NCBI RefSeq assembly: GCF_014705615.1
Contig: NZ_JACXJA010000007.1
Coordinates: 248,001-312,000 of the forward strand
DNA: 64,000 bases
DNA from: Paenibacillus oceani
Lineage (GTDB): Bacteria; Bacillota; Bacilli; Paenibacillales; NBRC-103111
Direction of reading: 5' to 3'
Below the pieces are notes generated by a model that worked only from the letters and a program-made list of their open reading frames with translations, was not told the origin of the DNA and did no database searches. Below are positions 30,348 to 58,596 of this stretch, in pieces (position 1 is the first letter of the stretch; each line of letters begins with the position of its first letter). Both the position numbers and the translations under genes were made by a program.

Positions 30348-31586
30348 CTACGGATTCGTAATCGTTCCGAGGAACAGCCAGGAGCCGGTGTGACTGTCCT
30401 CGATGGCGAAGAAAAAGGGACGGTTCACGACCATGTCGACCGGCTTGGAAGGCGGGGCCGAGCCTGCCATCATGGCGCCGGTAGCGGCGGCGGCTTCGGT
30501 GCCTTCTTCGTTTACGTCCAGATACGTCTTGTGCGTAACGCCGCTAATGTAAAGAGGATGAACGTCGGCCATTTTACGGAAATCCGCCCGGCCCGGATCA
30601 AAAGCTAGGGACATGCCGATACCGGTTAGCGCGTCTTTCAGCTGCGCTGTATACTCCACCTTGAACTTGGGGAGACGGAGATCGACCCGGACGGGTTCGA
30701 ACGTCTGCCTGCAGGGGAGACAATCGGACCACAGCTGGCGGTTTAATTCGTCCAGGGAGGACGTCTCCTTCGGCAGGACGAGCAGCATATTCATCCGTCC
30801 GTCGCCGTAGGGAAGCTTGACGGCTTGCCAAGCTTCGTGTTCGGAGTAGGCATAGGTGCGGGTTTGCCGCATCATGGGCACTTTTTTGACGGCACCGTCC
30901 GGCAGCGTGAAGTTATCGTCTTGAGTATCGCCCTTCTTGAACGGGTCCGTCCAGGACGCGTTGAAGTAGACCGCATTCAGCAGCACCGCTGCGCTATCGG
31001 CGGGGAGCCGTTCCTCGAGCAGCTTGCGGATTTTGCCTTCCGTCCGCTTCGACACCCAGCTGTTGATAACGTCCGTCGTCTTCGGGGAGGCGAAATCTGC
31101 AGAGCGGACCTCCGCTTGATAATAATCTTTGACGGTCTGAAGATAAGGCTTATGGAAGACCGTATGTGCAGCGGTCCATACGGAATTCGCGATCGTTAGC
31201 TTGACGCCGCCCCCGGATGCGGTCAGCAGCTCCGTCATCCTGCGGTTCGCCTCGTTTAACTCGTTCTCACTCATTCCGTCCCAGCCTAGCGCAGCCGCGA
31301 TTTCCTTCGCCGTCTCCCCGGAGCTTCCCGTATAGGCCAGAGCAAGCGCGGCCGATACGCTTGCCGGCGAGATTACGACATTTTCCCCTTTTCCGGCATC
31401 GCTCATCTGCTGGTGCAGCTTAAGTCCGAATGAGCGGCTCGCTTCGGCGATTCGCGGATCGATCGCGGCCGCGGCCGCTTTTCGTTCATCCGCCGACCAC
31501 TTCGGTCCGGAAGGCCCGGCGCCTGCACAGGCTGTCAGCAGGAGTAGCAGAGCACCCGCCGCAGCAGTCCTTTGGTTCATCTTCAT
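30348..31586 (-). CDS. Serpin lipoprotein (serine protease inhibitor)
   Basis: 412 residues from ATG 31586, preceded by a G-rich site. A lipoprotein signal with lipobox LLTAC puts the acylated Cys at residue 20, so it is membrane-tethered outside the cell. The rest is a full serpin: NVVISPASVSAALALAYTGSSGETAKEI, the breach/shutter block LNAVYFNASW, and DVNEEGTEAAAATGAMMAG as the hinge of the reactive centre loop, followed by VVNRPFFFAI. The all-Ala hinge predicts an inhibitory serpin. The loop has no Arg, so a trypsin-like target is unlikely; a subtilisin- or elastase-like target is possible. The exact P1 is unclear because the loop seems longer than in alpha-1-antitrypsin. Confidence 0.93.
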   Translation of the reverse strand: MKMNQRTAAAGALLLLLTACAGAGPSGPKWSADERKAAAAAIDPRIAEASRSFGLKLHQQMSDAGKGENVVISPASVSAALALAYTGSSGETAKEIAAALGWDGMSENELNEANRRMTELLTASGGGVKLTIANSVWTAAHTVFHKPYLQTVKDYYQAEVRSADFASPKTTDVINSWVSKRTEGKIRKLLEERLPADSAAVLLNAVYFNASWTDPFKKGDTQDDNFTLPDGAVKKVPMMRQTRTYAYSEHEAWQAVKLPYGDGRMNMLLVLPKETSSLDELNRQLWSDCLPCRQTFEPVRVDLRLPKFKVEYTAQLKDALTGIGMSLAFDPGRADFRKMADVHPLYISGVTHKTYLDVNEEGTEAAAATGAMMAGSAPPSKPVDMVVNRPFFFAIEDSHTGSWLFLGTITNP

Positions 31587-31820
31587 AACCCGTCCCCCCA
31601 AAAAAAATCTCCCCAAAATGTATCTCATCCTAGTCCAGACGAGTTCAAGACGCCGAAGGTTGCGCCTCCGGACGACAATTGTGCCGGACAGCAAGTCCAA
31701 TCAGAGAGGAGCGATTGATTAGAACCGTTTTATCCGGATGCGCTTCCAATTTTGAAACGGTATAATACATAAGCTCCGCAAGAGAAGACCATCTGAATAG
31801 GAGGGGCCGCCGTTAATCGG

Positions 31821-49637: not shown

Positions 49638-50975
49638 TTATGGCGACGGGGGACCTTTGCTGACCCAGAACGTAACTTTGCTGCCTTTCTCCACTTTCTT
49701 GCTCGGAACCGGGTCCTGCCGGATCACAGTGCCCGCTGCCTGAGTGCCGAATTCGATAAAATATTCGTATTTGAGACCGTAGGCCAGCGCCAGCTTCTCG
49801 GCGTCTTCCCTAGCCAGGCCGGTTAAGGTCGGGATGTCCACCACATCGCCGGAACCGGACCCGGGAGCGGGAGTGACCGGCGGTTTTACCGGGTCAGGCG
49901 CAGGCTGATCTTTTTTGGGCACCTCCGTAGGCCCCTGCTTCTGCTGGGCCGGCTGATCGGGCGTAGCGACGGACGGCGCTTCCTCCCCTTTATTGCCAGT
50001 AATTCCCAGCAGCAGCGTAAATACTCCGACGAAAACGGCGACCCCTACAAGCGCGAACGCCCCGCCGATCCAAAGCGACTTGCTGATCCGGAATAAGCGC
50101 CCCTTCCGGCCGTCCGAAACAGCCTCATCCGCCTCCGCTTCATCGGCTTCCGCCTGCAAGTCGTCGTTCGGATCTTCATCAGGCACCGCTTCATAACGGC
50201 GTTCATGATCGTCGGACGGGGAGCGCGGTTCTTTACGCGAAGGCAGCGGGGGAGCGAGCGGATCGCCCGACCGGTTGTCTCCGTGAACGATTTCCGGGCG
50301 CATATCCGAGACGATACGGACGAGATCGGCAGCCGTAATGTTTTCCTGCCAGCCTTCCGTTAGAGCCGTAATCGCCGTTTCCTTCACCGAGGAAGGAACG
50401 TGGCGCATCGCCTGCCGGAGCTGGGCGGAGAACGTGCCCGCTTCCGCAGGCACGACAAGCGAGCCGACAACGAGCTGGTACAAGAGCCCGCTTAAATGTT
50501 TGACGAGTCGATCCTTGAAGGAAGGCGCGTTCCACGTATCGATGACGTTGATCCGCATCTCCTCGGTAACCCATAGATTGCCGGCTTCGAGCGAGAAGTC
50601 GAGCGGTCTCTGCTCCGCTGCGTCCAGCAGGGCCGCACCGAAATCGCCCACCATCGAGGCGGCTTCCTTAAAGGACAACGGATGCTCCTGAATGAAATCG
50701 CGCAGCGGGCGGCCTTCCTTGTAATTCAGGACGGCGCGCAGTTGCTCCTCTCCGACCTCGACATCCAGAACGTGCATAAATTCCGGCTGGTGAAGGCCGT
50801 GAGAAGCTTTGCTCAGCCCGGCGATCGCTCCGGACTTGCCGGTTTCTCCCTGATACGGAATTTCGTATATGAATACGAGCCGTTTTAAGGCCGTGTCTTT
50901 GCCGATATATAAGGTGCCTTGCTGGAGCGGTGTTACGAGCCTCTCCAGAATATAACGGTTTGAAAATGGCTTCAT
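49638..50975 (-). CDS. PASTA-domain membrane protein with a degenerate kinase-like domain
   Basis: 445 residues with topology like PrkC/Stk kinases: an N-terminal cytoplasmic kinase-like region (~1-250), an acidic linker (EADEAEADEA), one membrane helix (~303-327), a Pro-rich spacer and one PASTA domain (~378-445; IPTLTGLAREDAEKLALAYGLK...VSKGPPS). The kinase-like part keeps order but lacks catalytic residues: YILERLVTPLQQGTLY has no Gly loop, VFIYEIP replaces VAxK, PLDFSLEAGNL replaces HRDxKxxN, and DTW replaces DFG. It is probably a pseudokinase that senses cell-wall fragments. GGGGGGA precedes ATG 50975. Confidence 0.82.
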   Translation of the reverse strand: MKPFSNRYILERLVTPLQQGTLYIGKDTALKRLVFIYEIPYQGETGKSGAIAGLSKASHGLHQPEFMHVLDVEVGEEQLRAVLNYKEGRPLRDFIQEHPLSFKEAASMVGDFGAALLDAAEQRPLDFSLEAGNLWVTEEMRINVIDTWNAPSFKDRLVKHLSGLLYQLVVGSLVVPAEAGTFSAQLRQAMRHVPSSVKETAITALTEGWQENITAADLVRIVSDMRPEIVHGDNRSGDPLAPPLPSRKEPRSPSDDHERRYEAVPDEDPNDDLQAEADEAEADEAVSDGRKGRLFRISKSLWIGGAFALVGVAVFVGVFTLLLGITGNKGEEAPSVATPDQPAQQKQGPTEVPKKDQPAPDPVKPPVTPAPGSGSGDVVDIPTLTGLAREDAEKLALAYGLKYEYFIEFGTQAAGTVIRQDPVPSKKVEKGSKVTFWVSKGPPSP

Positions 50976-51237
50976 CTGGAATCCCCCCTATATGTCTATA
51001 CCCATATTGTTCGCGTACGCCGCTGCTTTTTGGGGTAAGAGAAAGCTCTGAATGCGAAGCTTTCCAATAAAATACATAGGAATGATTGCGGAGCCTTGAT
51101 CGCAGCTTGGCAGAGCCGTATAGACAATTCCTATAACTTTAATACGATTTATAAATTTCCTGATGGAAATCCGGTTTTATATACTGAAATTGACAAGCAC
51201 ATCGTTCAACAAATACAAAATACAGGGAGGTGTCCGG

Positions 51238-51711
51238 ATGTCCGACATTGTGAAAAACCAATTTGATAGTGCGGCGGACCGTTACGACAGCCAGAGAAAA
51301 CGGTTGATTCCTTGCTTCGACGACTTTTACAGCGCGGCCGCCTCCTGGATCGAGACCAGCGAGCCGGCTCCGCGCATATTGGATCTTGGCGCAGGCACGG
51401 GCCTGTTCGCCAGATTCGCCAGACGGAAGTTTCCGGAAGCATGGCTGACCCTGGTCGATCTGAGCGATAATATGATCGGGCCGGCGCGCACCCGATTTGC
51501 AGGAGACACCCGGGTCGAATGCATTGTAGCTGATTATACTAGTTATTCGTACCGGGGACAATACGACGCTGTCATCTCTTCGCTGTCAATCCATCATTTG
51601 TCCCATGAACAGAAGAGAGCGTTGTTTCGCACCGTCTACGAACTGCTGCATGAGGGAGGCGTCTTCGTAAATGCGGATCAGACTTCGGGTTCGACGCCGT
51701 ATTTGCCGCAC
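51238..51711 (+). pseudogene. Class I SAM-dependent methyltransferase, 3'-truncated
   Basis: Start ATG 51238 with GGGAGG eight bases upstream. Motif I is ILDLGAGTGLFA, the acidic end of strand 2 is LVDLSDNM, and ISSLSIHHLSHEQK and LLHEGGVFVNADQTSG are post-motif blocks of a ~220-residue methyltransferase. Homology stops at about residue 155, just where the terminator of the convergent gene begins (51713). The frame then continues antisense through that gene to 52035 and is composed of low-complexity, Arg-rich sequence. The last two strands of the fold are lost, so activity is doubtful. Confidence 0.7.
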
Positions 51712-51712
51712 G

Positions 51713-51742
51713 AAAAGCCGGCCCGTCGAAAGGGCCGGCTTA
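51713..51742 (-). terminator. Terminator of the convergent hypothetical gene
   Basis: Arms AAGCCGGCCC and GGGCCGGCTT with TTTT on the minus strand. Confidence 0.8.
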
Positions 51743-51772
51743 GGCTTCATGCATCCACAGCGGCGGACAAGG

Positions 51773-52240
51773 TCAGGAGCGGGAAAACCCTTCCTCCTGC
51801 AAATATTCGACCGCTTCCTCATACGTTTCGAACACCGAATCCAGGTTCAGCCCGGCGAATATGTACCAGAAGTCGTCCTCGAACTTCAGCGTCAGCGACT
51901 GGTTGCCGGTGCCGGTCCATCGTTCGCTGCGCGGCTGGCCGCTGGCTTGGGCCGGTTCGGCCGCCGTCGACAGCGAACGGATCGAGTCCGCGATCAGGGA
52001 ACGAAGCTCATGCTCGGGCAGATCCCGGATGTTGACGAACCCTTTGTCGTCCGCAGGGCAGTCGGGAAGCAGTCCGGCGTATACGAAGCCGTTGCCGTTC
52101 GGATGGAGATGATAGACGACGTTTTTCTTATCGTGCACGCTTCCGGGATACTGGAAGTTGACGCGCCCGAGCGAGACGTCTTTGCGCTCCAGCTCGGCGA
52201 ACGATTCGATGATCGCCAGTTTCTGTTCAAAGCTTAACAT
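51773..52240 (-). CDS. Conserved hypothetical protein (155 aa)
   Basis: A soluble protein without signal peptide. Begins MLSFEQKLAIIESFAELERKD, has VVYHLHPNGNGFVYAGLLP and ends in FWYIFAGLNLDSVFETYEEAVEYLQEEGF. I do not recognise a domain. AAGGGGAA precedes ATG 52240. A strong terminator follows. It has a codon pattern similar to its neighbours and is clearly coding: the opposite-strand frame across it is Arg/Ser-rich and unlikely. Confidence 0.7.
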   Translation of the reverse strand: MLSFEQKLAIIESFAELERKDVSLGRVNFQYPGSVHDKKNVVYHLHPNGNGFVYAGLLPDCPADDKGFVNIRDLPEHELRSLIADSIRSLSTAAEPAQASGQPRSERWTGTGNQSLTLKFEDDFWYIFAGLNLDSVFETYEEAVEYLQEEGFSRS

Positions 52241-52272: not shown

Positions 52273-53106
52273 TTAGAAATTAAAGTTGTCCGGGTCCGCA
52301 CCGACGCGGGTATCGAGATTGAGACCGTCGATTAATGACATATCCTCCGCGGACAGCTGGAAATCGAAAATATCGGCGTTTTCGCGAATACGCGACGGCG
52401 TAACCGATTTTGGAATCGTAACGACGCCGTTTTGCAAGTCCCAGCGAAGAATGATCTGGGCGGGAGACTTCCCGTATTTTTGGCCGAGGCCGACAAGCAG
52501 CTCATGCGAGATCAGCTCTTTGCCCTGCATCAGCGGACTCCATGCTTCCATCTGAATTCCGTTCTTTTGGCAATAGGCAAGCAGCGGGCGCTGAGAGAGC
52601 CGGGGATGATACTCGACCTGATTGACCATCGGCTTGACCACCGCATCCTGCAGCAGATCGTCGAGATGATGAACGTGGAAGTTGCTGACGCCGATGGCGC
52701 GCACGCGGCCTTGCTCATACAGATGCTCCAGCGCTTTCCATGTGTCCTTATACTTGCCTTTAACCGGCCAATGAATCAGGTACAGGTCCACGTACTCCAG
52801 ACCGAGCTTGCCGAGGCTTTGCTCATAAGCGGCCAGCGTCGAGTCGTAGCCTTGATCGGCGTTCCACACTTTCGTCGTAACGAACAATTCATCGCGGGAG
52901 ACGCCGCTATCGCGAATAGCCCGGCCGACGCCTTCCTCGTTGCCGTATACGGCCGCCGTGTCGATGCTGCGGTAGCCGGTTTCGATCGCAGTCCGGACCG
53001 CATGCTCGACCTCCTGGCCTTCCGTCACTTTCCATACGCCGAGCCCGAGCCAGGGCATCCGAACGCCGTTGCCAAGTACAGTCGTGTCCGTCAAATGTGA
53101 AGCCAA
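52273..53106 (-). CDS. Aldo-keto reductase
   Basis: 277 residues from TTG 53106, which has AAGGAGGAGG six bases upstream; the frame to 53127 would put the SD inside the gene. AKR fold with the catalytic tetrad: Asp and Tyr in SIDTAAVYGNEEGVG, Lys in VTTKVWN, His in LIHWPV. GVSNFHVHHLDDLL, NQVEYHP and IPKSVTPSRIRENADIFDF are the NADPH-side motifs. Similar Bacillus enzymes (YtbE, YvgN) reduce methylglyoxal and other aldehydes; that substrate is inferred. Confidence 0.93.
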   Translation of the reverse strand: MASHLTDTTVLGNGVRMPWLGLGVWKVTEGQEVEHAVRTAIETGYRSIDTAAVYGNEEGVGRAIRDSGVSRDELFVTTKVWNADQGYDSTLAAYEQSLGKLGLEYVDLYLIHWPVKGKYKDTWKALEHLYEQGRVRAIGVSNFHVHHLDDLLQDAVVKPMVNQVEYHPRLSQRPLLAYCQKNGIQMEAWSPLMQGKELISHELLVGLGQKYGKSPAQIILRWDLQNGVVTIPKSVTPSRIRENADIFDFQLSAEDMSLIDGLNLDTRVGADPDNFNF

Positions 53107-53247
53107 GTGCAGCCTCCTCCTTCTCACCTGCAGAAATGAATATCATCCTAGGATTCGCGATCCTCTTCCAAAATACCATCCCGGGACATCCGATGCAAAC
53201 AGGGAAGGGCCGCTCTGCGCCATCGCCTTCGGGAGTGCGGCAAACGG

Positions 53248-54159
53248 CTACGGACTCACCCTCGCGATCACGGCGGCGGCTTCCGCGCGCGTAATCGGCC
53301 GGTCCGGCCGGAACGTGCCGTCATCATAACCGTCGAACAGCTCAGCTCGAACGGCCGCATAGATGAGGCCTTCCGCCCAATGACCTTCGACATCGCCAAA
53401 GGCCGCAGCCGTCCCGCCGTCTTGTCCCGACGTGTCCAGCGCTTCGCTTCGGGTCAGGATCGCCGCAATCTCCGAGCGTGTAATTTCCTGGTCCGGCCGG
53501 AACGTGGAGTCCGGGTAGCCGTCGACAATGCCGTATTCGATTGACGTTGCGATGTAGGTTTTGTAGGGGGACTTGGCGATGTCGGTGATGTCCGGACCGC
53601 TGCCGTTCGAGAGGAACAGCTGTTTGGCTTTGACCAGATACGTTATCAATTCCGCTCTCGTAATGTTCTGCTCCGGCTTATACAGCAGCTTGCCGTCTTC
53701 GATATAACCGTCGACGGCCCGTTTGCGATGAAGCGCCAAGATCGAATCCCGGGCCCAATGTGCTTCGATATCGGATAATTCCGTCGGAATGCCGTTAAGC
53801 GACAATACATAGTTGACGATCGCTTCGTAGTCTTCGTTCCGGAGCGTGGCCGGCGCGTTTTGCGGCATCTCGGTGCTGATATAGCCGTACGCCTCTTCGA
53901 AGGTGCCGTATTTTTTCTTGAAGCGTTCTGTCGTCAGCGCCGGATTCGAGCCCCGTCCTGCGCCGTCTGCGGCATGGCACGACAAGCAGTGCTGCTTGTA
54001 CAGCTCTTCGCCGGAAGACAGGGTCCCGGAGGCGGAGCCGGCGTTCGTCTGAGCGGATGTGGGGGGCTGCTGAAAGGGCAGGGCGGCAGCGGCCAACGCG
54101 ACGGTGCCGATCGCTGCGGCAATCAGCCATTTGCGTTGACGGTCCGTGATAAGCGGCAT
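53248..54159 (-). CDS. Cytochrome c fused to three SLH domains
   Basis: 303 residues from ATG 54159 (GGAGG nine bases upstream). An N-terminal signal anchor (KWLIAAAIGTVALAAAALPF), then a c-type cytochrome: YKQHCLSCHAADGAGRG (CxxCH at ~57-61) and a likely axial Met in ISTEMPQNAP. Residues ~130-303 hold three S-layer homology repeats (DIEAHWARDSILAL; DIAKSPYKTYIATSIEYGIVDGYPDSTFRPDQEITRSE; DVEGHWAEGLIYAAVRAELFDGYDDGTFRPDRPITRAEAAA; cited in part). SLH domains bind pyruvylated cell-wall polymer, so heme would sit in the wall outside the membrane. An uncommon combination. Confidence 0.88.
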   Translation of the reverse strand: MPLITDRQRKWLIAAAIGTVALAAAALPFQQPPTSAQTNAGSASGTLSSGEELYKQHCLSCHAADGAGRGSNPALTTERFKKKYGTFEEAYGYISTEMPQNAPATLRNEDYEAIVNYVLSLNGIPTELSDIEAHWARDSILALHRKRAVDGYIEDGKLLYKPEQNITRAELITYLVKAKQLFLSNGSGPDITDIAKSPYKTYIATSIEYGIVDGYPDSTFRPDQEITRSEIAAILTRSEALDTSGQDGGTAAAFGDVEGHWAEGLIYAAVRAELFDGYDDGTFRPDRPITRAEAAAVIARVSP

Positions 54160-54312
54160 GGTGAACGGCCTCCTTGTTGTGGGGTTAAAAGTGTCATCCA
54201 CCAGCGTATCACAAGTTTATGACATTCTTATGACGGCCTGTACGCCACTAACACCATTTCGCGGGCAGTTCCTCGGTATGGTAGCCGGGGGAGGGGAGCT
54301 GCCGAAGAAGCT

Positions 54313-54361
54313 CCGAACAAACGTCCAAACCGGCCCAGGGCCGGTTTGGACGTTTGTTCGG
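54313..54361. repeat. 49-base perfect palindrome
   Basis: Two perfect 24-base arms (54313-54336 and 54338-54361; left arm begins CCGAACAAACGTCC) around a single A. It lies 12 bases beyond the stop of the gene at 54373, so it may end that transcript, though no T-run follows on the minus strand. Confidence 0.85.
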
Positions 54362-54372
54362 TATGGCAGCGA

Positions 54373-54933
54373 TTAGTAGATCATGGATTCATGACTTGGA
54401 ATGCCGGAATGGGACTGTATCTCTTTCCCTTTTTTGTGGTGGCGTTCCTTGTCCTTTTTCCATTCCTTCCAGTCTTTTTTGTTGACCATCGCTTTCAGGT
54501 GCTCCGGCAGCTTTTGTTTGATGCGGTCCGCTTTGTCCTGCGGCCATTTGCCGGATTGGACGGCTTCGTCGATTTTCTGGTTCCGGATGGCGATCATCCG
54601 GTTGATCAGATCCTCTTCGCCGATGCCTTTCGCCTTGGCGATATCCGCTATGCTTTTGCCGGCTTCAAGCTGCTTTTTCAGCTCTTTTTTGTCCACGCCG
54701 ATGACGGCGGCGGCATCTTCGAACAAGAAGAAGCCTTTGCGCCGCTTTTTCTCATCCTGGGCGGCGGAGGGCGAGTGAAGCTCGGTATCGGGAGCCGCTT
54801 CGTTCAAGACGGCGATCTCGGGCGACGGTGCCGCGGAAGCGGGGGTGCCTCCGGGAACGACCAGCAGAGCAGCCGACAAGCCAAGGGCGATGAGGCCCAG
54901 CGGGATTTTTTTGACAGTCGGAATAACGTTCAT
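54373..54933 (-). CDS. Secreted or membrane-anchored helical protein (186 aa)
   Basis: A signal sequence (IPLGLIALGLSAALLVVPGGTPASAA) is followed by a charged stretch and a helical domain, AAAVIGVDKKELKKQLEAGKSIADIAKAKGIGEEDLINRMI, resembling the repeated unit of DUF2680-like exported proteins. The C-terminus is very rich in Lys, Trp and His (WKEWKKDKERHHKKG), possibly cation- or wall-binding. AAAGGTGATG precedes ATG 54933. An inverted repeat occupies the leader. Function unknown. Confidence 0.65.
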   Translation of the reverse strand: MNVIPTVKKIPLGLIALGLSAALLVVPGGTPASAAPSPEIAVLNEAAPDTELHSPSAAQDEKKRRKGFFLFEDAAAVIGVDKKELKKQLEAGKSIADIAKAKGIGEEDLINRMIAIRNQKIDEAVQSGKWPQDKADRIKQKLPEHLKAMVNKKDWKEWKKDKERHHKKGKEIQSHSGIPSHESMIY

Positions 54934-54951
54934 GGTACTTCATCACCTTTC

Positions 54952-54998
54952 TTCTCCAAAGTTCGGGTCGGTTTTAGTTTGTTCCAAACTTTGGAGAA
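54952..54998 (-). promoter_or_regulatory. Inverted repeat in the leader of the 186-aa gene
   Basis: Perfect 12-base arms TTCTCCAAAGTT (54952-54963) and AACTTTGGAGAA (54987-54998), 23 bases apart; the right arm also forms TCCAAA-C-TTTGGA. It could be an operator or a leader hairpin. Confidence 0.45.
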
Positions 54999-55014
54999 TG
55001 ATACGGGATGAATG

Positions 55015-55647
55015 TCAGAACGCGATCCGGTACAGCGGCATGACGCGGTCGAACGTATCTTTGATGATGTCGGTCAGCAGAGCCGGATCGGTCAATACCG
55101 GATCTTTGCGGTCGATGCGGATGCCGCACAGCGCTTCGGTTTTTTTGACCCGCTGCAGCTTGTCGATCATCCGCTCAAAGTCTTGTTTGCTCATATCCTT
55201 ATGTACGGAGGACTCAGGCTGCATATGATCGGTTGACCAGCGGAAATGTCCGGGGATCGATTTGCGGATGGCGGGCAGTTTCTTCTCCAGATTGCGGGCG
55301 AAAATTTCTTTGTTGCCGCTTTCGTAAATAACGGCGAACTGCACGAATACATGTGTCGACCACAGTCCGACCTGAAAATGCGGATGGGCTTTGTACCCTT
55401 TTTTGTTATTCGCCCACGCCACCCATGTGTCGTCCGGAGGATTGATCGTCCGTCTGGCATGTCTGGCCACATGGGGGTACATCGGCTCGCCGCACAGCGC
55501 GGACAAGTAAGGAGCGAGCTCCTCGCCAAGCTTCGTCAGCTTCGGCCGGACGCGTGAGATTAAAGCTTCCATACGCGGCTCCAGCCCGGGAATTCCAAAT
55601 ACTTCAAAATCGGCAACGTCAAACGCGGGAACATCGAGGACAGTCAT
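55015..55647 (-). CDS. yktB: UPF0637/DUF1054 family protein (YktB-like)
   Basis: 210 residues from ATG 55647 with a perfect AGGAGG upstream. The beginning MTVLDVPAFDVADFEVFGIPGLEPRMEAL and the blocks HVARHARRTINPPDDTWVAWA and GHFRWSTDHMQPES correspond to the YktB (UPF0637) family of Bacillales. These are soluble proteins of unknown function. The length matches the family. Confidence 0.9.
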   Translation of the reverse strand: MTVLDVPAFDVADFEVFGIPGLEPRMEALISRVRPKLTKLGEELAPYLSALCGEPMYPHVARHARRTINPPDDTWVAWANNKKGYKAHPHFQVGLWSTHVFVQFAVIYESGNKEIFARNLEKKLPAIRKSIPGHFRWSTDHMQPESSVHKDMSKQDFERMIDKLQRVKKTEALCGIRIDRKDPVLTDPALLTDIIKDTFDRVMPLYRIAF

Positions 55648-55827
55648 AAGTACCTCCTGAATAAATAACTTATCGATCGTCGAACGGCTCCTCTTAACAG
55701 TACAACAACCGGCCGATTGTTCGCAAACGGTCAACTCCTTCTATGCGGGGGAACGAGCCTGAGCTATAATAGAAACTGGATAAAGAAGGAACTGATACGA
55801 GAACAGTTCGGGACAGGAGTGAGATTG

Positions 55828-56733
55828 ATGAACCATATTCGTTTCAAACGGATAGCCGGATTAACATTGGCGATGGGGCTTATGTTTACGGCTGGCGTCT
55901 ACGCTAAGGACACGCTGCAGAAGGTCGAGGCTTATCTGCGTCCGGATTTCAAAGTGGAGATCGACGGCAACAAAGTCGGCGGCATGACTCCGCTCATCTA
56001 TGACGGCAGCAGCTACTTGCCTTTCAAAGCGATCGGAGAGCTGCTGGGCGCCCAGGTAAGCTGGGACGAGAGTACGACGACGATCAAATTGAAGCGGCCG
56101 GCCGCGCCCCAGACAGGTTCCGGTACGAATACGGGAAGCGGTACAGGAACCGGCACAGGAACCGGGACGGGGACAGGTACAGGTACGGAAACCCCGATCG
56201 TTACGCCGGTGGTCGAAGTACCCGAAGAGATTACGCTGGACACGCTGATCCGCTACAATTTCGAGTACGAAAAAGTCAACTACCCGGCCTTGATCAATTT
56301 GTATAAAGGGACGGAGTATATCCGCTGGAAAGATATCAAGAATATTCCGATCAACGTCGGCAATCCGGAGCTGACGAAGGAGAAGCATACCGGGGAGCTT
56401 TACGTTCATATGGATTTGATCAAGCCGTACTGGAAAGATAAAGTGAAAGGCGGCCTGAGCAAATACGCGATTGTCGAAGGCGGTTATGCGATCGCGGAGG
56501 ACAAGCTGAAGGCGCTGGACGAATATTTCGGCCGGTTCGAGAAAGGGTTTACGATCAAACCGCTGGAAGGAGACAACGAATATACCGTTCTCGCCCAAGG
56601 CAGCAACAAATCGTACTACCAGTACAATATCCGCTTTTCTCCCAAATACAACGGAGGCTGGCTCGTATCGAGCTTCGGCTGGAAATCGTACCCGACCGAA
56701 AATCTCGATCCCGCGCTGTGGCCCCCGCGCTGA
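55828..56733 (+). CDS. Secreted stalk-domain (copper amine oxidase N-like) protein
   Basis: 301 residues from ATG 55828 (AGGAGTGAG upstream). A signal sequence (IAGLTLAMGLMFTAGVYA), then a stalk domain of the copper amine oxidase N-terminal type: VEIDGNKVGGMTPLIYDGSSYLPFKAIGELLGAQVSWDESTTTIKL (cited in parts; ~40-88). A Gly-Thr-Ser repeat linker (~95-125) precedes a unique C-terminal domain with VNYPALINLYKGTEYIRWKDI. Stalk domains are common in Paenibacillus surface proteins; despite the name, no oxidase is present. A terminator follows. Confidence 0.85.
   Translation: MNHIRFKRIAGLTLAMGLMFTAGVYAKDTLQKVEAYLRPDFKVEIDGNKVGGMTPLIYDGSSYLPFKAIGELLGAQVSWDESTTTIKLKRPAAPQTGSGTNTGSGTGTGTGTGTGTGTGTETPIVTPVVEVPEEITLDTLIRYNFEYEKVNYPALINLYKGTEYIRWKDIKNIPINVGNPELTKEKHTGELYVHMDLIKPYWKDKVKGGLSKYAIVEGGYAIAEDKLKALDEYFGRFEKGFTIKPLEGDNEYTVLAQGSNKSYYQYNIRFSPKYNGGWLVSSFGWKSYPTENLDPALWPPR
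56113..56192 (+). repeat. GGTACAGGAACC-like tandem repeat coding a Gly-Thr linker
   Basis: Imperfect six-base units (GGNACN) encode the (GT)n linker of the stalk protein. Such a repeat can change length by slippage without leaving frame. Confidence 0.7.
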
Positions 56734-56763: not shown

Positions 56764-57357
56764 ACCGCTCCAAATAAAAAATCGCGATCTGGGTACGGTC
56801 GCGCAGCTCCAGCTTGCTCAAAATGTCCGTAATATAATTTTTGACCGTTCCTTCGCTCAGGTGCAGCTGCCGGGCGATTTCTTTGTTGCTCAGCCCGTCG
56901 GCAATCTTCTCCACGATCTGCTGCTCGGAGACGGTCAGTCCGTATTCCACCAACGATTTTTTGGCATTCGGCGTTTTGTCGGAAGGCTTCAGGAAGACGG
57001 TTTTGATGCCGTCGATGATCCGGTCCGGGGCGACGTTTTTGAGCAAGTAGCCGCCGGCTCCGTTGCGGAGCGCCTCGATAATATACTCGTCGTCGTCGAA
57101 CGTCGTCAAAATGATCACGGCGATGCCGGGATCATAAGCTTTGATTCGCCTCGTGCCTTCGACGCCGTCGCAGACCGGCATGCAAATATCCATTAGCACT
57201 ACGTTTATACCGCCGTGCTTTTGTACGAATTGCAGCGCTTCCTCCCCGTTCGTGCATACCCCTTCCACCGTATTTCCGGGTCCAGCTCTAAAATCATTTT
57301 CAAGCTTTCTCGAATAAACGGATCGTCGTCGACGATCAGCAGGCGAATGTCGCTCAT
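56762..57357 (-). pseudogene. NarL/LuxR-family response regulator with a frameshift
   Basis: ATG 57357 begins MSDIRLLIVDDDPFIRESLKMILELDPEI, a normal receiver start, but the frame is lost near 57272. One frame over it continues VEGVCTNGEEALQFVQ, then the phospho-acceptor in VVLMDICMPVCDG, ILTTFDDDEYI, YLLKNVAP and a LuxR helix-turn-helix (LTVSEQQIVEKIADGLSNKEIARQL...GTVKNYITDILSKL). A single-base loss (expected CAGGTG, found CGGTG) explains it. The rest of the gene is intact, so a sequencing error is possible. Its kinase gene upstream is missing. Confidence 0.8.
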
Positions 57358-57365
57358 CGGTTGTG

Positions 57366-57402
57366 TTAGAGACTGTCATCGCCACCTTCTGCCGCCCGTA
57401 GC
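57366..57402 (-). pseudogene. Possible C-terminal stub of the partner histidine kinase
   Basis: On the minus strand a frame ending LRAAEGGDDSL with stop at 57366 lies nine bases before the regulator start, as the end of a kinase gene would. It breaks off at about 57403, where the ATPase fragment of the other strand begins. A low-confidence reading. Confidence 0.3.
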
Positions 57403-57404
57403 AG

Positions 57405-57638
57405 ATCGCGATGCGAAAACAATGATGTGCGGCCTGCTCGCGCCCGATCAGGGCGAGATCCGGATCGGAGGGGAGTCGGTCCGGCGCAGTCCGCTCGAGA
57501 TCAAGAGGCGGATCGGTGTCGTTCCTCAGGAGTTGGCGATCTATGAAGATTTGAGCGCCCGGGAAAATGTAACATTTTTCGCCAAGCTGTACGGATTGAA
57601 GGGGAAGGTGCTGGAGGAGCGGGTCGAGGAGGCGTATG
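57405..57638 (+). pseudogene. ABC-2 exporter ATPase fragment (Walker A lost)
   Basis: The fragment starts abruptly with KTMMCGLLAPDQGEIRIGGESV, the sequence that normally follows Walker A, and continues through the Q-loop GVVPQELAIYEDLSARENVTFFAKLYGLKG to about 57636. Walker A, the signature, Walker B and H-loop are absent. Frame and sequence then change to the permease. No start codon is apparent. Confidence 0.75.
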
Positions 57639-58596
57639 TGATCTCCGCCCTGGCCGATTCCGGGGAATATAGGCTAGTACCCGCGCCGTCTGCCGAGGCT
57701 GCCAGGCAATCCGTATCGGAAAATAAGGCGGCTGCCGCGATTTTGATCCCGGGTACGTTCGGAGTTCGGCTGCTGCAGGGAGCGGGAGCCGAAGTCGAGA
57801 TGATTCAGATGCGGGTCGACGAGCAGACGTTCGGGCTGAAGCTGGCTGTCGAGCAGACGATCCGCGGCATGAACCAGGCGGTTGCATTTGCGATGGAAGC
57901 GGGATCGGCCGGCCCGGACCTGCTGCAGACAGTCGAGCGTATCTGGATTCAGCAGCAAACCAAGCAGGTCGGCGTAACGAAGACCGATCTCGGTCTGGAA
58001 GTGAATCCGGCAGTGGATATGGCTACGGGGATTTTGCTCGTATTTATGCTTAGTCTGGTGACCAGCTCGTGGCGTCGATCGTGGAAGATAAGAGAAACCG
58101 GACGATGACCCGGATGTACACCGCTCCGGTTCGTGCTTGGGAGATTGCAGCCGGCAACTTTATCGGCAGCTTCGCGATCGGTACGATCCAGACGGTGATC
58201 GTGCTTGTGTTTTCCCGGTACGCCCTCGGGTTCGATTACGGGGTCGGATTCTGGCTTCATTTCCTGGTGATCGAGTTTTTCCTGCTCGCCGCTATGGGAC
58301 TCGGCTGTACGATCTCCGGCCTGGTCCGGAATCCGAATCATCTTGGCGCGATTAATTCGCTGATCATCACGCCGACGTGCATGCTGGGCGGTTGCTTCTG
58401 GCCGGTCGAGCTGACTCCGGAGTTTATGCAGAAGCTGTCCAATATCGTGCCGCAGCGGTGGGCGATCGATGCGCTGCGTCAGCTGGCGGCCGGAGAGTCT
58501 CTGGCAGGGGTTTCTTTGCAGCTTGGCATTCTTGTGCTGTTTGCGGTTATTTTGCTCGGATTCGGCTCCGTCGTGCTGCGGCCAAACGAGAGCTGA
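57639..58596 (+). pseudogene. ABC-2 permease, 5'-truncated and frameshifted
   Basis: In frame with the ATPase fragment, the sequence becomes an ABC-2 permease from its extracytoplasmic loop on (AAAILIPGTFGVRLLQGAG...VNPAVDMATGILLVFMLSLVTSS). Near 58060 one base is lost; the next frame continues ASIVEDKRNRTMTRMYTAPVRAWEIAAGNFIGS and carries five helices to the end (LGGCFWPVELTPEFMQKLSNIVPQRW; cited in part). The N-terminal helix is missing. A deletion from the middle of the ATPase into the permease created the join. Confidence 0.8.

Follow-up and report, generated by a model that had tools for sequence, protein, structure and literature searches.

A gene of Paenibacillus oceani encodes a protein in which a mono-heme class I cytochrome c is joined to three SLH domains; the fusion is retained across several genera of its family and is apparently undescribed, with related ideas in print. 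The gene lies in a stretch of 64,000 nucleotides, which we refer to as the window (contig NZ_JACXJA010000007.1, positions 248,001 to 312,000, forward strand). On balance, we think it probable that the protein acts as an immobile, wall-fixed relay or buffer for single electrons.

Architecture and conserved residues of the fusion protein

Translation of the gene is free of stops from an ATG that is preceded by AAGGAGG (ribosome-binding site score 7 of 7); a longer ORF starting with GTG at 54201 was considered but is not needed given this site. The sequence-only reading had described the product as a mono-heme c-type cytochrome, with a CLSCH motif and an axial Met, fused directly to three SLH domains, and both parts of this description hold. 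Pfam analysis of the 303 amino acid protein returned Cytochrome_CBB3 (E 1.4e-12, residues 47–118), Cytochrom_C (E 3.4e-8) and SLH (E 6.9e-35) in three stretches. A sequence search of the PDB likewise matched the SLH part to Sap of B. anthracis and the remainder to class I cytochromes. An AlphaFold model built from only three sequences (the window protein and those of loci L009 and L010) had a mean pLDDT of 43.4 and was not used. The positions of all features are given in Table 1.

Residues C58, C61, H62 and M98 are invariant in the 22 orthologues. The joint between the two parts is short, with six residues separating the LNG of the last cytochrome helix from the first SLH Asp in 21 of the 22 by script; in the remaining orthologue (L046) the joint aligns without a gap, as read from the alignment. 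In SpaA of P. alvei, according to PMC6081394, a binding groove is composed of SLH-Arg43, SLH-Gly29 and SLH-Trp13, contributed by three different SLH domains. When mapped by analogy, grooves G2 (R168/G214/W261) and G3 (R228/G277/W135) have full triads in all 22 orthologues; groove G1 is without its Trp because SLH2 has none at position 13. Two grooves for wall-polymer binding are therefore predicted to be complete in the fusion protein.

Table 1. Features of the fusion gene and its surroundings (window positions)
Feature	Position	Strand	Remarks
Cytochrome c–SLH fusion gene	53248..54159	-	303 aa, ATG start, stop-free translation
SLH domain 3, residues 254–295 (W261, G277, R291)	53275..53400	-	Pfam, residue alignment
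SLH domain 2, residues ~189–231 (G214, R228; position 13 not Trp)	53467..53595	-	approximate borders
SLH domain 1, residues ~129–171 (W135, G151, R168)	53647..53775	-	Pfam, residue alignment; approximate borders
Class I cytochrome c domain, residues 47–118	53806..54021	-	Pfam PF13442 / PF00034
Axial Met98 in MPQN	53866..53868	-	22/22 orthologues; putative ligand
Heme-attachment motif CLSCH, residues 58–62 (C58-L-S-C61-H62)	53974..53988	-	22/22 orthologues
N-terminal signal segment, residues 1–37, hydrophobic ~13–27	54049..54159	-	TSA^QT a possible cleavage site
Ribosome-binding site AAGGAGG	54169..54175	-	from sequence
Conserved promoter block TCATAAGAATGTCATAAACTTGTGATACGCTGGT, direct-repeat-like element and -10 region	54200..54233	-	20/22 orthologues; putative function
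Perfect palindrome, 49 nt (23-bp stem, 3-nt loop)	54313..54361	.	terminator-like, without a long T run
Secreted Lys/His-rich helical protein, upstream neighbour, without a Pfam family	54373..54933	-	homologue in 22/23 neighbourhoods
DUF1054 protein, neighbour; called ORF starts upstream of the domain	55015..55734	-	21/23 neighbourhoods

Distribution, inheritance and relatives of the fusion

A domain-architecture search, the check that the sequence-only reading had suggested, found the fusion, covering both parts, in at least 22 of 104 family genomes and in six genera, with four, one, one, one, four and eleven carriers in genera g1, g6, g9, g10, g18 and g21 respectively. This count, from a whole-protein search with at most 22 candidates scored per genome and matches at E ≤1e-25, is a lower bound. 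The other 21 orthologues, which include those of P. mesophilus and P. hemerocallicola (loci L009 and L010; same contigs as L030 and L031), are 50–64% identical to the window protein and share its whole-length architecture; this recurrence in 21 further genomes excludes a chance fusion. A profile spanning the cytochrome and SLH1, built from the 22 orthologues, was then used to search 392 genomes of the order and matched both parts in the same 22. No further two-part match was found among the 288 genomes that the order sample adds to the 104 (counted by handle numbers; at most ten candidates scored per genome) and, in 398 genomes of the phylum, the only two-part match among the candidates scored per genome was in the genome of P. 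oceani itself. The combination had been called rare, and this remains a fair description, with one distant look-alike (locus L109 of genome G113) among the 288 further genomes of the order. The open-access literature, a scope that makes absence weak evidence, yielded no description of a cytochrome c–SLH fusion.

Within the family the fusion is not universal. G001, a genome of the same genus, gave no match to it, and a syntenic orthologue in G091 (L051) has kept the signal and the SLH domains and lost the cytochrome domain (Pfam: SLH only), so that the heme is dispensable in that lineage.

Where the fusion is present, purifying selection acts on the cytochrome part, with omega values of 0.028 and 0.056, and 0.107 and 0.064 for the SLH part of the same two pairs; these are two of 231 pairs, the others being saturated at synonymous sites. 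Mean pairwise identity was 0.64 for the cytochrome part and 0.62 for the SLH part. The tree of the fusion has 13 of 17 splits in common with that of DUF1054 (20 taxa; DUF1054 sequences found by BLAST), against a maximum of three with shuffled labels, and the two trees contain two conflicting pairs of supported splits. The fusion has mostly been inherited vertically.

The nearest cytochrome domains outside the family, among the candidates scored per genome in the profile search, are those of L109 and L114, both in the same order and both, like the window protein, cytochromes with a surface module. L109 differs from the window fusion in having a long Pro/Thr-rich linker between the cytochrome and diverged SLH domains (one stretch by Pfam, two more SLH-like by eye); L114, in genome G105, instead carries a copper-amine-oxidase N-terminal domain. 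The L114 fusion lies at 1351–2085 (G105:C3); a copper-amine-oxidase N-terminal module also occurs close to the window gene, at 55717–56733. In another order, the cytochrome domain is found on a small lipoprotein-like protein (G546, L133). At class level, 28 of the 29 loci from other genomes gave a CXXCH ORF among the matches listed (30 of 50), 26 of them with two motifs and two with one; no clear SLH repeat was seen in these 28, again among the matches listed. The 26 two-motif relatives are presumably TsdA-like. The cytochrome domain is thus one member of a broader set of exported cytochromes, and what marks this family is its close joining to three SLH domains.

Gene neighbourhood and promoter

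The synteny with the genes for the secreted helical protein and DUF1054 is strong (Table 1), with both genes missing from the neighbourhood in G017 (L060). Several of the secreted proteins have Lys/His-rich C-terminal tails, that of L078 having nine His in its last 60 residues. Despite the synteny, an operon of the fusion gene with these two genes was rejected: the fusion gene has its own promoter block, the palindrome lies between it and the secreted-protein gene (z of -6.0 for the fold of the 213 nt around the palindrome), and a gene of 638–643 amino acids intervenes in three of 23 neighbourhoods (L063, L066 and L070; threonyl-tRNA synthetase-like by eye in L066). For these reasons the neighbours were not treated as one functional unit.

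The promoter block has the consensus TCACA.taatGTCATAtTTTTCt..TATAATGga and is visible upstream of the start in 19 of the 22 orthologues, and also in L035 if its start is moved to an inner ATG; the motif search of the 22 found no clear block upstream of L033, a non-syntenic locus, or L043. The motif had a log-likelihood of 361 versus 92–103 in four simple letter shuffles, which were run with fewer starts than the real search. A sigma-70 consensus scan of 53100–55800 detected no promoter-like site, and GATACG is a poor -10 in the window gene itself. For the repeated TCACA/GTCAT element we considered a regulator of the ResD or PhoP type as a candidate.

No other CXXCH gene was present among the called ORFs of the window or of 20 neighbourhoods, and no redox partner gene linked to the fusion gene was found in the neighbourhoods. 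Elsewhere in the window, an ABC transporter ATPase fragment runs in-frame into an ABC-2 membrane fragment (57215–58108; partial Pfam matches below cut-off), probably a deletion-damaged transporter; a methyltransferase (51163–52035) has a C-terminal part that looks non-native past residue ~180, possibly through a frameshift; a full-length serpin (30348–31700, minus strand; E 8.8e-113) has a start that resembles a lipoprotein signal by eye; and a protein that is kinase-like by eye (49638–50975, minus strand) combines a membrane helix with a single PASTA domain at its C terminus, the only part that Pfam recognises.

Possible functions and comparison with known systems

An outer membrane that could retain a soluble cytochrome c is absent from monoderm bacteria, and their cytochromes are usually described as held at the membrane. 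The P. oceani genome has the capacity both to load a heme c and to anchor SLH domains. The System II protein ResB is encoded in this genome and in all 22 carriers, and also in 101 of the 104 family genomes, so that its presence is required but uninformative; the pyruvyltransferase CsaB is represented by a TIGR03609 match of 289 bits (cut-off 213). A PF13442 search of the genome found four cytochromes, which are the fusion, a c550-like protein of 120 amino acids with an N-terminal helix, a c551-like, lipoprotein-like protein of 111 amino acids (anchor types assigned by eye) and a QcrC-like cytochrome of bc type whose gene adjoins that of QcrB, recognised by eye. The two small ones we take to be of the CccA (c550) and CccB (c551) types of Bacillota. 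In L080, where two genes occupy 15–1214 and 1486–1821, the gene for a c551-like lipoprotein adjoins, in opposite orientation, that of a large SLH protein.

The reading that we favour starts from the sequence, its ligand and groove residues, their conservation, the hydrophobic export segment and this genomic capacity. The protein would be exported unfolded, its signal possibly cleaved, and would receive one covalent heme c from the ResB-type System II on the outer side of the membrane; the three SLH domains would then bind a pyruvylated secondary cell-wall polymer whose synthesis involves CsaB, placing the heme in the wall or at its outer face. The heme is likely to be six-coordinate through His62 and Met98, and since such a heme has no open site it would, as is general for this class, make the protein a one-electron carrier rather than a catalyst. 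With a stub of six residues leading to the SLH trimer, the heme would be immobile and have a fixed place in the wall. The wall is tens of nanometres thick and cannot be spanned by a single fixed heme; mobile partners are therefore needed, which favours a relay or buffer in the wall. Such a relay would exchange electrons with the membrane chain through small membrane-anchored cytochromes, quinones or flavins and, on its other side, with extracytoplasmic redox partners; the direction of flow and these partners are what we infer. The points against a relay are the low-pLDDT model, the loss of the cytochrome domain in G091, the lack of a match in G001, the two tree conflicts and the lack of a linked partner.

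The principal rival is a respiratory cytochrome with two anchors, given the long stretch past the hydrophobic core. Its signal would stay uncleaved and keep the heme membrane-bound, in a position between bc complex and oxidase, while the SLH domains would pin the protein to the wall. All 22 orthologues have a hydrophobic core in the N-terminal segment, and in most of them a long and often charged stretch separates the core from the first strict cleavage site; the presence of bc complex genes in the P. oceani genome and the membrane-bound state of Bacillus cytochromes c550 and c551 also count for this arrangement. However, an [AVSTIL]-x-A site follows the core in 21 of the 22, by a permissive rule rather than a signal-peptide predictor, and a lipobox-like match was present in only one. 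We regard two anchors as possible, if on the unlikely side.

The sequence-only reading had pointed to extracellular electron transfer, in which a wall-exposed heme would deliver electrons to external acceptors (minerals, electrodes, humics or flavins). The wall-binding triads kept in the fusion fit this proposal, and there are precedents in three papers: surface multiheme cytochromes of Gram-positive bacteria such as OcwA (PMC6703420), archaeal fusions of S-layer and multiheme modules (PMC9012536) and reduction of Fe(III) by a Paenibacillus isolate (PMC6389598). The fusion has a single heme, however, and the called ORFs of the window and of the 20 neighbourhoods include no further CXXCH gene, which leaves this role possible but unsupported; moreover, it has no link to known genes of extracellular electron transfer, and one orthologue (that of G091) has dropped the cytochrome domain. 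We consider this role doubtful.

Donation of electrons to secreted oxidoreductases such as LPMOs, in the manner of CjX183 of Cellvibrio Cbp2D, appears improbable. The cytochrome-domain profile does reach the Cbp2D-type chain 7b21 and the lipoprotein chains 8q1v and 8q1w in the PDB, and CjX183 reduces LPMOs in vitro (PMC8981238). An LPMO partner is disfavoured by the distribution of AA10 enzymes (PF03067), which occur in none of the 22 carriers and in 23 of 82 non-carriers (Fisher p 0.003, uncorrected for kinship). That no heme is loaded, with the cytochrome fold surviving as a relic of structure in a protein associated with the S-layer, is very improbable: the loss in G091 would suit it, but all 22 orthologues retain both Cys, the His and the Met, omega is low in the cytochrome part (two pairs) and all carriers have ResB, a weak point given its frequency in the family.

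On the preferred reading of a wall-fixed relay or buffer, SLH domains would add a third option to the membrane helix and the lipid as means by which monoderms hold on to a cytochrome c. More speculatively, and with a good deal less confidence, some Paenibacillus-like bacteria may use this option, under a dedicated promoter, to build an immobile single-heme layer on the wall; serving as an electron buffer or for electron hopping, this layer would link the membrane chain with external redox partners. If the protein is wall-fixed, redox chemistry would take place in or on the wall of bacteria not known for outward electron transfer. Being simple and conserved, the protein would also lend itself to the question of whether a thick wall can be crossed by electrons in the absence of multiheme wires.

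Cytochromes c550 and c551 of Bacillota resemble the fusion in having a single CXXCH class I domain, a Met ligand and System II maturation, but their anchor is a membrane helix or a lipid, whereas the fusion would be held by three SLH domains predicted to bind wall polymer; rather than a lipobox or helix as sole anchor, it has the SLH trimer, with a lipobox-like match in 1/22. Sap of B. anthracis and SpaA of P. alvei share with it an SLH trimer with the TRAE Arg, Gly29 and Trp13, but their cargo is an S-layer-forming or enzyme part instead of a cytochrome, and SLH2 of the fusion is without Trp13. The X183 domains of Cellvibrio Cbp2D and of Teredinibacter are, like the cytochrome here, extracellular mono-heme class I domains on a larger surface or secreted protein; these are Gram-negative systems with CBM and quinone-binding partners, in contrast to the SLH domains of the fusion and its 22 carriers, none with an AA10 LPMO. 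OcwA of Thermincola, like other wall-surface multiheme cytochromes, also has c-type heme for which a place on the outside of a Gram-positive wall is proposed, with nine hemes versus one in the fusion, and the text of PMC6703420 contains no SLH or S-layer term. SLH proteins do occur in flavin-based redox clusters, according to PMC8238504. Finally, MHC-A and MHC-B of ANME archaea join a cytochrome to a surface-layer module as the fusion does (PMC9012536), but these archaeal proteins have many hemes and an S-layer domain of the DUF1608 type where the fusion has SLH.
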